Source: Sialis fuliginosa
Taxonomy: Eukaryota; Arthropoda; Insecta; Megaloptera; Sialidae
Length of the DNA stretch: 64,000 nt
Assembly (NCBI GenBank): GCA_961205875.1
Contig: OY540821.1
Coordinates: forward strand, 13,578,001 to 13,642,000
Reading direction: 5' to 3'
The notes below the pieces were generated by a model, which was given only the letters and a program-made list of their open reading frames with translations, did not search any database and was not told the DNA's origin. Positions 6,003 to 62,480 of this stretch are shown here, piece after piece; the stretch's first letter is position 1, and each line of letters begins with the position of its first letter. Made by a program: the position numbers and the translations under genes.

Positions 6003-6236
6003 TAGGTTTGTAAAAAAAATCGATATTTTTTCCCCTCGTTCTCGTTACGAAATAAGGTAATATATGACCCAAAATAAATCCCCCCCACAAGTATTACCCT
6101 GAAGTGCCACAAGGGGGGTCTTGTTTCCCATTTAAATAACCGGGAAAAATATTATTTAGTTCTAAAGTTGGTATTACTGATTCATGATAACTGATAAAAC
6201 TTTAATGACAACATTTTGTAGAGAATAAAATTATGT
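6003..6236 (+). repeat. Dispersed repeat family D, copy 1
   Basis: Shares a collinear series of blocks with 47008-47225 and 62247-62480: an A-run then ATCGATATTTTT, a CTCTCGTTACGAAATA-like block, CCAAAATAAATCC, a TTTAAATAAC block, then TTGGTATTACTGATTCATG and AATAAAATTATGTT. Copies differ by substitutions and indels. No terminal inverted repeat or TSD was identified, so the class is unknown. A frame reading across it is fortuitous. Confidence 0.8.
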
Positions 6237-10092: not shown

Positions 10093-10498
10093 TTGTAATT
10101 GGATATCATCCTGAGATTCCTAAATGATTTTCTTTATTAGAAAAAAAACATACATTTTTGGGCATTATATTTCGATAACGGAGAAACATATTTGAATGCG
10201 CAATAATTTAAATTAAAGAACAATCAAGTGTCTTTAAAATATTATGTAACTGTATTTTTTTTATAATTAATCGTTATTTTTTTAGTGATGTTAAAATAAT
10301 CTTATTTTGAGGGCATTTTTCAAACAATTAACTATAACAAATGTTTAGCTGTTATATATCATTTTAAAGGTCTCTTTAATTTAAACTATTGCGCATTCAA
10401 ATATCTTTCCCCGTTACCGAGATATAATGCTCAAAAATTTATGTTTTTTTCTGATAAAGAAAATCATTTAGGGACCTCAGGATGATATCCAATTACAA
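10093..10498. mobile_element. 406-bp foldback element
   Basis: Two arms of about 150 bp face each other. The left arm starts TTGTAATTGGATATCATCC at 10093. The right arm ends with its complement at 10498. Within the arms, TGAATGCGCAATA and CTAAATGATTTTCTTTAT also pair. Arm identity looks high over most of the length and the unpaired centre (about 10240-10345) is very AT-rich. No transposase and no clear TSD were seen. The superfamily is unknown. If transcribed, the arms would form a long double-stranded RNA hairpin. Confidence 0.8.
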
Positions 10499-22499: not shown

Positions 22500-23445
22500 T
22501 TATAGGTTTAAATATATGAAAATAGTTCAGAAATACAAAAATATAGGCAAACAAATTTAAGTCAATTCAATGAGATAATAAATAATACAAATTAAAGTTT
22601 ATAAGATAACATTTAATTGAGCCTTTATATATAAAATATGGTCAATCCCCTCCCTCCCAAGTTACTTTTTTTTATATATTTAATTTTTCCAAGAATTCAT
22701 AACAAGAAAAAGAAACTTTTTTGAAAACTTCGCAATAAAGTTTACCAATTTAAATTTCACTTGTAGAATTTAATTTAGATATTACATTTCAAACAACAAA
22801 AACCCTAAAACATTTAATTCACCTAATCGAATTTCATTTATGAAACAAAAAACCATTCTGTGTCACAAAACGGTAAAGATATAAAAGTTCTCTGCTTGTT
22901 TTCGGACTTTCCTTGTGGCCATATTTCGCTGTTCTCAGCGTCATCGCCCTACGTAGTGATACAAATGATACTAAAATAAATTGAATAATATTACTATTTT
23001 ACTTTCAGTTTTATGTTTTCAGGATTTCTTTTGCTTTTTCGCACATTCAAACTGTTTATTTAATGATACTTTCACCAACAAATGAAGATTGTTAGTTAAA
23101 TGGAAATAATACCCAATATAGTATCTACAATAAACGGTATTGAATAAATTCTAAAAAGTTGTAAAAATGTAGTAAATGTTAAAAAATATACGGGATGAAT
23201 AAAATTATGGAATATTGTTTTTATTTTCTAAAATATTCATTATTAAAAAAAAATATTTCTGTTTTTAGAGATATTATTTCCTATGTATGCAACTATCAGT
23301 TACGTTGATATAGTAGCCAACTCTTTTTTTTTAATGAGAACATATCTTTCTTATTAATTATATGAATAGATTTTATTTTCTTGAATACAACTCTGTATTT
23401 ATAAATTTTGAGAAAAATTAACTTTTATAATCTCAGATCACATCA
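22500..23445. other. Gene-free AT-rich stretch before the palindrome
   Basis: No gene seen. ATACGGGATGAATAAAATTATG at 23189 resembles a transposon end and may mark the left boundary of the element that contains the palindrome. Confidence 0.4.
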
Positions 23446-23523
23446 CAAACCGTTCTCGAGATATAGCCTCACAAAGTTTTAGTTTTTTCAAATTTTTGGA
23501 GAAAAAAGGCCAACTCTTTTGAA
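23446..23523 (+). repeat. 78-bp unit, direct copy outside the palindrome
   Basis: CAAACCGTTCTCGAGATATAG through TTTTGGAGAAAAAA to CTTTTGAAC. The same unit recurs directly at 23709-23797 and inverted at about 24055-24145. The outer copy ends exactly where the palindrome starts. Confidence 0.85.
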
Positions 23524-24326
23524 CACTCTCAATTATAAAACTATAATACCTCTACGTTTTATTTTCTTGTATTTTAGTCGATATTTGTATGACGAGTTGA
23601 AGTTCACTGCAGGAAATTTCACTAAAAAATTCAAAATTTTTTATTTAGTTAAAAGTATGTTTATTGTATAGAAAATGACGTGAAAAGTTGTTTGTTTCAA
23701 ACCGCAGGTTTGTATCTCAAACCGTTCTCGAGATATAGCCTCTCAAAGTTTTAGTTTTTTCAAATTTTTGGAGAAAAAATGCCATAACTTTTGAACGTGT
23801 GGTCGGAATTGATTTTAGTTGACGGATTTGGAATCAGCGAGTCAAAATCTATATAATGACATGTATTATACCTTAAAACTCGAAAAAAAAAATTTCGCGA
23901 AAAATCGAAAAAATTCAAAGGGGTATACCTTAAAAAAACGTCGATTTTTGACCAAAATTTTTTTGTCGGATTTTAAAGTGTTATACATGTCATTATATAG
24001 ATTTTGACACGCTGATTCCAAATCCGTCAACTAAAATCAATTCCGACCACGCGTTTAAAAGTTATGGCCATTTTTCTCCAAAAATTTGAAAAAACTGAAA
24101 CTTTGAGAGGCTATATCTCGAGAACGATTTGAGATACAGACCTGCGGTTTGAACAGTTCAACTTTTCAAGTCATTTTCTATACAATAAACATACTTTTAA
24201 CGAAATCAAAAATTCGAAATTTTTTAGTGAAATTTGCTGCAGTGAACTTCAACTCGTCATAGAAATATCGACTGAAATACAAAAAAATAAGACGTAGAGG
24301 TATTATAGTTTTATAATTGAAAGTGT
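23524..24326. repeat. About 800-bp near-perfect palindrome (foldback)
   Basis: The left arm starts ACACTCTCAATTATAAAAC at about 23523. The right arm ends GTTTTATAATTGAAAGTGT at 24326. Pairing is nearly continuous inward through GACGAGTTGAAGTTCACTGCA, TAAAAGTATGTTTATTGTATA, the 78-bp unit, GACGGATTTGGAATCAGCG and ATATAATGACATGTAT, leaving a loop of roughly 30 bases around 23912-23938. Small differences between arms (for example GTGTGGTCGG versus CCGACCACGCG) show that it is not a simple sequencing reflection. A 62-codon frame across the centre is a by-product. It has no transposase; a foldback-type transposable element is the likeliest identity. Confidence 0.92.
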
Positions 24327-24743
24327 AAATTAATATTAAATGCTATTTTCGATTTTTGGTTAAAATGTTTTTAAATTATTCATTAAATGAAAACACAGAT
24401 TTGTATTAGTTTACCCATAAAGTAAGGGAAGCACTGCTTCCAAGGACGCTTCGCCGCTGCTTTGTAAACCACTAATAAATCATATCGTGTATAAAAAAAA
24501 CCGTAATAAACAAAACTACCTGCTTCACCCAATCAGACTTCAAAATAAAATATAAAAAATGAGTGAAAATACGTTGAAAATGAAAGTATTTGTTTTCTAC
24601 ACTCATTCGGAATTCTAGAGTTTGTCCGTAAATTACATACAAATATAAAAACTATATGTGAGTGCAAAGTTTGCGCGACTCGTTTTATGATGTAACATAT
24701 ATTAAATCCCCATAAACATTATAATGTCAGCAGAAAAAAGCAG
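24327..24743. other. Gene-free stretch
   Basis: Mostly AT-rich. GGAAGCACTGCTTCC at 24429-24443 is a 15-base hairpin-like inverted repeat beside a small GC-rich patch. No function assigned. Confidence 0.4.
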
Positions 24744-35572: not shown

Positions 35573-35727
35573 TAAAAAAATATTGCTTTCTTTCTTCTTT
35601 CAATTTGTAATTTTATTCTAATAGTATTGCAAACAAAATTTCATTACACGTAAAAAAATATTGCTTTCTTTCTTTTACCAATTTGTGATTATATTTTAAT
35701 AGCATAGCCAATAAAGTTTCTTCACAA
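35573..35727 (+). repeat. Tandem duplication, 77-bp unit, two copies
   Basis: TAAAAAAATATTGCTTTCTTTC begins each copy (35573 and 35651). The copies then share CAATTTGTAATTTTATTCTAATAG with several substitutions. Divergence suggests an old duplication. Confidence 0.85.
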
Positions 35728-41222: not shown

Positions 41223-41674
41223 TACTGGCACCAGTCTTGGATCATACCCCAGTGTTGGATTCTTGTTTTATTAAATGTACTAAATCAGAAATATTTGTTG
41301 ATATTTGATTAATGCCATTACTGAATCATAATCTATAGACAATTAACATTAAAACAGCTTAATTTGATGCTAATCGTCCAATGAATGTTAAAATGGTGAA
41401 CATAACTAATTACTAGTTAATCTATTTATCAATTATTATATTATCATACCTAGCATCTGCTTTACACTGATTCAAATTTTACGATTTTTTATTTTATAAC
41501 CTAACTTTTGTGTCGTAGTACTTATCATTTTGAAATAATTGGTTTTACTTTATCCATTACTGGAGAAAAAACATAAACAAAATAAAAGGCTATAAGTATA
41601 ATTAAAAAAAAAAACTAGTAGGTACTTTTATTAGTAATCTAGCTCTTAAAGCGGCCAAAACTGGTGCCAGTACC
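41223..41674 (+). mobile_element. TIR element family C, copy 1 (complete)
   Basis: The ends TACTGGCACCAGTCTTGG (left) and the inverse of CCAAAACTGGTGCCAGTACC (right) are near-perfect inverted repeats. The body is about 450 bp and non-coding. A second full copy lies inverted at 58272-58747 (shared inner words TACCCCAGTGTTGGA and TTTTGTGTCGTAGT.CTTATC) and a partial copy at 47226-47370. TA lies outside CTGGCACCAG at both ends, which would fit a Tc1/mariner-type TA target, but GGTACTGG is shared between copies, so the exact border is uncertain. Confidence 0.82.
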
Positions 41675-44677: not shown

Positions 44678-45064
44678 ATTTTAACAAATCGGCGCCCCTG
44701 ATTACGTAATAAAAGGAAAACACCCTTAAAAAAAATTTGAGTCTGTAGGATCGCGCCAAGCTGAGATATTAACTATTCAATTTACTTCTTTGTTAGTTTA
44801 TGAGTTTTAATTTGTTTTTAAAAAGGGAAGGAGGTCGCGAGGGTCTTTAAGTGCGTGATATTCTTAAAGATAATAGTGTAAGCTACATTAAAAAAAAATT
44901 TGAGTCTGTAGGATCGCGCCAAGCTGAGATATTAACTATTCAATTTACTTCTTTGTTAGTGGGGGGGGGGTACATGATATTATTATTTTATCTTATATAA
45001 TAGAGGAGGGAGTTCAAAAAATTTGCCCCCCCCCCCCAATATTTTTAACAAGTCGGCGCCCCTG
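44678..45064 (-). mobile_element. Nested hAT-like ends with 72-bp duplicated unit
   Basis: Two minus-strand ends, CAGGGGCGCCGATTTGTTAA (from 44700) and CAGGGGCGCCGACTTGTTAA (from 45064), have the hAT CAGGG form. Between them a unit running from an A-tract through AATTTGAGTCTGTAGGATCG to CTTCTTTGTTAGT occurs at 44726-44797 and again, practically identical, at 44888-44960. A G10 tract (44961) and a C12 tract (45026) flank 55 bases. The nested duplication points to a rearranged or tandem insertion. Confidence 0.7.
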
Positions 45065-47007: not shown

Positions 47008-47225
47008 AGGGTGTGGTAAAAAAAATCGATATTTTTTTCTCGCTCTCGTTACAAAATAAGACCAAAAATAAATCCCCCCACAAGGATTACTCTGTAGTTC
47101 AATTTTAAGAGGTTCCACAAGGGAGAGTTTTGTTTCTTATTTAAATAACATGAAAACATTATTATTTAGTACTAACGTTGGTATTACTAGGACGGTATTT
47201 TGTAATGAATAAAATTATGTTGTAT
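47008..47225 (+). repeat. Dispersed repeat family D, copy 2
   Basis: Same block order as 6003-6236 and 62247-62480, including TTGGTATTACT and AATAAAATTATGTTGTA at its end. It abuts the partial family C copy at 47226. Confidence 0.8.
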
Positions 47226-58271: not shown

Positions 58272-58747
58272 GGTACTGGCACCAATCTTGAACGCTTTAA
58301 GAGCAAGGTATATTGTTTTTTGGGATTGATGGGCGACTTTCTCATGAACTTATGTTTATAATAAAACAACTACCTCTTATTAAATCAATTTAATTACCAA
58401 AGACTATAAATATAGTTTGGTTTTTTAATTATTGTCTTTTCTCCAGTAATAAACAATGTAAAAACAGTAATGAACACCCAGTGATAAACACTTAAGAAGT
58501 TTACAAAATGATAAGAACTACGACACAAAATTTATAACATAAAGAATTGTTTTTACTTACTTCACAAATTATTTACATACGAAAATGTATTTTACTTGAT
58601 AGTCTTTTTAAACAAAATGATCAATTATCATCAAATCACGCTGTAAGACAGTTAAATGTATATAAATTAATATCCAATAGTGGCAGTAATCAAATATCAA
58701 TAAAAATGTCCAACACTGGGGTATTGTTCAAGACTGGTGTCAGTACT
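58272..58747 (-). mobile_element. TIR element family C, copy 2 (complete, inverted)
   Basis: Left GGTACTGGCACCAATCTTG and right CAAGACTGGTGTCAGTAC are the family ends. Read on the minus strand it carries ATACCCCAGTGTTGGAC and TTTTGTGTCGTAGTTCTTATC in the same order as copy 1 at 41223. It has no transposase; a 72-codon frame inside is incidental. Confidence 0.82.
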
Positions 58748-62246: not shown

Positions 62247-62480
62247 TTAGGGTGTGTCAAAAAAAAATTTCTCTCGTTACGAAATACATAATTTTTTTAC
62301 CAAAAATAAATCCTCGCCTGTAGTTCAATTTTAAGAGACGCCGCAAAGGGGAATTCCGTTTCCCATTTAAATAACATGTGAAAATGATTATTTAGTACCA
62401 AAGTTGGTATTACTGATTCATGATAACTGAAGAAAATTTATTAAGGGTATAATTTTGTAGAAAATAAAATTATCTACAAA
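62247..62480 (+). repeat. Dispersed repeat family D, copy 3
   Basis: Starts AGGGTGTGTCAAAAAAAAAT and carries CTCTCGTTACGAAATA, CCAAAAATAAATCC, GTAGTTCAATTTTAAGAG (shared with copy 2), TTTAAATAACATG and TTGGTATTACTGATTCATG (shared with copy 1). It is intermediate between the other two copies. Confidence 0.82.

Follow-up and report, generated by a model that had tools for sequence, protein, structure and literature searches.

The question raised by this locus is whether the long palindrome in it is young, is an old foldback repeat with diverged arms, or was produced by faulty assembly, and separating these matters mainly for annotation. The window referred to below is the whole stretch of DNA that was analysed, 64,000 nucleotides in length. 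The first-pass annotation had described a near-perfect palindrome of 800 bp, with a loop of about 30 bases and a third copy of an internal 78-bp unit at its edge. The palindrome, of about 800 bases, is genuine and in excess of chance, but it is not near-perfect: the two 386-nt arms are 91% complementary, and their gapped alignment of 387 columns contains 353 identities, 32 mismatches and 2 gap columns. Local alignment runs continuously inward from 23523/24326, with breaks consisting at most of single-base gaps. The outer copy exists as well, although the repeated unit, named module U here, is 83 nt rather than 78 nt in length. The order of segments is U1-A-U2-B-loop-B'-U2'-A', where U1 adjoins the left arm from outside in direct orientation, overlapping the start of the arm by two bases, and the spacing from U1 to U2 is 272 bases. 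No outer U' matching U1 was seen at the right edge. Nominally the loop agrees with the earlier figure, yet it would comprise about 128 bases instead of 32 if the poorly matched, low-complexity columns beside it are discounted. Coordinates are listed in Table 1.

Table 1. Parts of the palindrome, in positions of the window.
Feature	Position	Strand	Remark
U1, outer 83-nt module copy beside left arm	23442..23524	+	6/83 differences from U2, 9/83 from U2'
Left arm, inverted repeat (segments A, U2, B)	23523..23908	+	91% complementary to right arm
U2, module copy within left arm	23714..23796	+	Repeat family and alignment
Nominal 32-nt loop	23909..23940	.	49 flanking columns (left side: from 23861) A/T-rich, poorly matched
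Right arm, inverted repeat (B', U2', A')	23941..24326	-	Alignment
U2', module copy within right arm	24053..24135	-	5/83 differences from U2

The excess over chance can be observed in two measures. With the span limited to 1000 bases, exact inverted repeats reach a maximum length of 41 bases here; the corresponding maximum is 23 in the window once the palindrome region is removed, and 10 first-order Markov shuffles gave 15-19. The RNA fold has a predicted energy of -539.3 kcal/mol, while 20 dinucleotide shuffles gave a mean of -166.4 kcal/mol and 0/20 reached the real value. A transcript is predicted to form a duplex of approximately 380 bp in which perfect runs do not exceed 41 bp, and of the 448 21-mers in 23442-23909, a span that takes in U1, 74 are matched by an exactly complementary sequence in the right half. 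The earlier expectation of long dsRNA upon transcription is therefore borne out as a property of the sequence. Moreover, the locus displays both the long self-complementary arms that are a feature of hairpin-RNA (hpRNA) loci and long, possibly terminal, inverted repeats with little between them, a feature of foldback/MITE-like elements.

Analysis of divergence demonstrates 32 substitutions between the arms among 385 compared bases (17 transitions and 15 transversions), corresponding to a JC distance of 0.088. With gaps counted, differences number 17/191 in A, 5/83 in U, 2/64 in outer B and 10/49 in inner B. The 49 columns on the loop side are more divergent than the remainder (10/49 versus 24/338, gaps counted; Fisher p = 0.005), and pairing there may be partly spurious since the sequence is A/T-rich. 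If insects are assumed to accumulate 3e-9 substitutions per site in each generation, the age of the arms would be about 15 million generations, provided that no arm-to-arm conversion has occurred. Such conversion was considered and set aside: a perfect run of 41 bases is expected, being reached by 5355 of 10,000 random placements, and the difference between U2 with outer B (7/147) and A (17/191) is not significant (p = 0.20). Arm divergence of approximately 9% disfavours both youth and an assembly foldback, and the suggestion in the first-pass annotation that the copy could be young finds no support in the three U copies either, which differ mutually at 5-9 of 83 positions. Judged from its sequence, the element looks like an old, worn and imperfect foldback repeat rather than a young palindrome.

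The window is AT-rich, with 23-31% GC in 2-kb steps, and contains only two ORFs of at least 120 aa (bacterial code). No tRNA was found in it and no Rfam match at gathering scores, and a Pfam search revealed no convincing protein domain in the stop-to-stop frames of at least 60 aa, of which 110 out of 124 were covered. A coding reading was rejected, as the families obtained at E <=0.05 in those 110 frames numbered 13, each in one member, the best at E 0.0075; the palindrome stretch is apparently non-coding. No target-site duplication above chance was detected with the presumed ends, although 8% divergence may have been enough to erase one of small size: the best candidate, AAATTAA (7 bases), was equalled by 616 of 2000 random stretch pairs, and when U1 was excluded the flanks matched over at most 4 bases, a length that 1976 of 2000 random pairs also attained. 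The 64-kb window holds no second copy of the element and no shared 18-mer, the best blastn match elsewhere in it being 25-30 bases (E 0.013). When U, A and B were each compared with both flanks in either orientation, none of the 12 tests yielded a clear match; the best score, that of U with the right flank reversed, was attained in 3/100 shuffles, and the other scores in at least 26/100. No tandem array was reported at the palindrome, and head-to-tail monomers are absent at this place.

Several other repeats are present in the window. A 70-base repeat at 44728-44797 and 44891-44960, with 100% identity and a spacing of 163 bases, looks recently duplicated. At 35573-35726 an AT-rich unit of 78 bases occurs approximately twice in tandem, with its copies 83-84% alike; the place is unrelated to the "78-bp unit" ascribed to the palindrome. 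Pieces of a dispersed repeat, with copies 77-89% alike, are located at 6040-6204, 47092-47188 and 62272-62440, and an inverted dispersed repeat at 41288-41585 / 58421-58710 consists of two blocks, 73-75% complementary, approximately 17 kb apart.

A second foldback is located at 10093-10498, with arms at 10093-10276 / 10322-10498 of which 153 of 172 aligned bases are identical, in addition to 15 gap columns; no target-site duplication above chance was detected for it. Both of its arms and module U contain the core CCGTTnnCGAGATATA or a close variant. With at most 2 mismatches allowed, CCGTTnnCGAGATATA has 6 matches in the whole window, namely one apiece in the 3 U copies and the 2 arms of the second foldback, plus one at 2-17, against an expectation of 0.25, a figure that overstates the case because the core was picked post hoc and the five places in the foldbacks amount to two independent ones (the U copies and one inverted pair). 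The palindrome and the second foldback gave 8 alignments. For 4 of these the score was reached in 3, 11, 5 and 3 of 500 shuffles, and for the other 4 in 58-183 of 500; in 8/8 the best shuffle outscored the real sequence. The sharing of the core by both foldbacks is thus suggestive only.

Outside the window, the collections searched were viral, plasmid and prokaryotic and, to judge by their descriptions, contain few if any sequences of animals or plants, so that misses in them are weakly informative. Neither GTTCTCGAGATATAGCC nor GATTTGGAATCAGCGnGTCAAAAT occurred in any stretch of the viral contigs, and GTTCTCGAGATATAGCC was found in 5 stretches of prokaryote contigs. DNA-word matches in viral contigs numbered 11 stretches for GGATTTGGAATCAGCG and 7 for GCCATAACTTTTGAACG. 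When both foldbacks were compared by blastn with the resulting 23 word-match loci (E <=0.01), 7 alignments at 6 loci were obtained, all of them with the palindrome and 19 bases long, and no likeness to the element was found around the 18 viral loci. All 23 loci were taken as chance matches and rejected as relatives. A blastn search of 23400-24400 against phages and plasmids gave no match, and six 15-base words of the element had none in the papers searched, the sole sequence search made in print.

Taken together, our analysis points, with a probability of roughly one half, to a decayed non-autonomous foldback/MITE-like interspersed repeat that carries module U in its arms and lies in AT-rich non-coding DNA, a likeness to foldback elements that is one of shape and not of assignment to a named family. 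This reading is favoured by arms that are continuous inward, by the want of convincing coding content, by the second foldback with the core, and by published elements with modular arms. It is weakened by the failure to find a target-site duplication above chance or another copy in the window, and by the one-sided U1, which would not be expected in an intact element. Beyond the anatomy and divergence observed, we infer past mobility, a later loss of activity, and a eukaryotic host, perhaps an insect, with this AT-rich stretch in its nuclear DNA. A hairpin-shaped element may once have been mobilised by a transposase encoded elsewhere, with the extra U on the left being either the remnant of an originally longer end or a piece of a neighbouring copy; the arms would then have diverged through substitution, and at present the element probably has no role except its capacity to fold.

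Two other origins appear unlikely but deserve weight. The locus may have come from a satellite-like repeat with large dyad symmetry in its monomer, of which it would be a dispersed fragment, as the order U-A-U-B-B'-U'-A' recalls monomers in which direct and inverted subunits are combined. In the part of the published account drawn on here, such monomers include TmSat2 of Tribolium madens, with imperfect inverted segments of about 300 bp in a 704-bp monomer, a T. brevicornis satellite with inverted segments of about 470 bp in a 1061-bp monomer, and a Trichogramma brassicae satellite with 80-bp inverted segments in a 385-bp monomer (PMC13081366). Against a satellite fragment stand the lack of a tandem array here and of a clear match of U, A or B in the flanks, the best being the one reached by 3/100 shuffles. 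The same evidence bears on the earlier proposal that the palindrome grew from a tandem array followed by inversion. The order U1-A-U2, with its 272-base spacing, and the similar divergence of the three U copies agree with it, but only U stands in direct repeat, no array is reported at this place, and neither flank gives a clear match to A, B or a further U. The other origin, of comparable improbability, is a one-off local event in which U was duplicated and neighbouring DNA then underwent inverted duplication through a template switch or fold-back repair, in line with the first-pass proposal. The similar divergence of the U copies (6, 9 and 5 of 83) would suit such an event, as would the lack of another copy in the window and of a target-site duplication above chance. 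It demands, however, that two inverted copies separated by a short spacer survived long enough to accumulate 8% divergence, and long, closely spaced inverted repeats are described as unstable in excerpts of published work.

Rather improbable is the idea that both foldbacks represent a class of palindromic repeats not described so far, in which the short core CCGTTnnCGAGATATA would serve as the binding site of a shared protein or be maintained by a shared mobilising enzyme while the arms otherwise differ. Should the core prove general, it would indicate a common factor behind such a class.

An hpRNA locus, whose transcript would be diced into endo-siRNAs, is less probable again. The predicted duplex of about 380 bp, with perfect runs of up to 41 bp, would suit such a locus, and a local tandem duplication of the left arm, described for one Drosophila simulans hpRNA in the passages cited (PMC10317233), provides a precedent for an extra copy beside an arm. 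The mismatches between the arms nevertheless give no hint that pairing was preserved for one transcript, with G-U accounting for 9/32 on a + transcript and 8/32 on a - transcript, in a count made without a control. Short-looped inverted copies are known to arise as artefacts, but an assembly or sequencing fault in which a read folded back on itself, a possibility noted in the first-pass annotation, is highly improbable here, given that such a read should yield nearly identical arms while these differ by 32 substitutions and 2 gaps spread over every segment and an extra U copy stands outside them.

Comparison with known systems places the locus as follows, each as characterised in parts of the published descriptions. 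Drosophila hpRNA loci resemble it in long hairpin potential and in an extra copy beside one arm, both observed here in DNA alone. TmSat2 and the major satellite of T. brevicornis likewise have monomers, 704-1,061 bp long, that contain imperfect inverted segments of 300-470 bp; compared by description, they differ in being tandem, whereas the present element is single within 64 kb. The decayed foldback repeat favoured here has its nearest counterparts in Tetris of Drosophila virilis and in Galileo. Tetris has arms of up to 1,735 bp with several internal repeats of about 220 bp and target-site duplications of 8-10 bp (PMC4079207), while the present arms, again compared by description, measure about 386 bp and carry a single U apiece, and the duplication is not seen above chance. 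Galileo is a foldback element with long, internally repetitive arms (PMC3573991), of about 300 bp to 1.2 kb by description, against about 386 bp here. Like the element in this window, both Tetris and Galileo have long inverted arms that carry repeated modules, and many of their copies are devoid of coding sequence.
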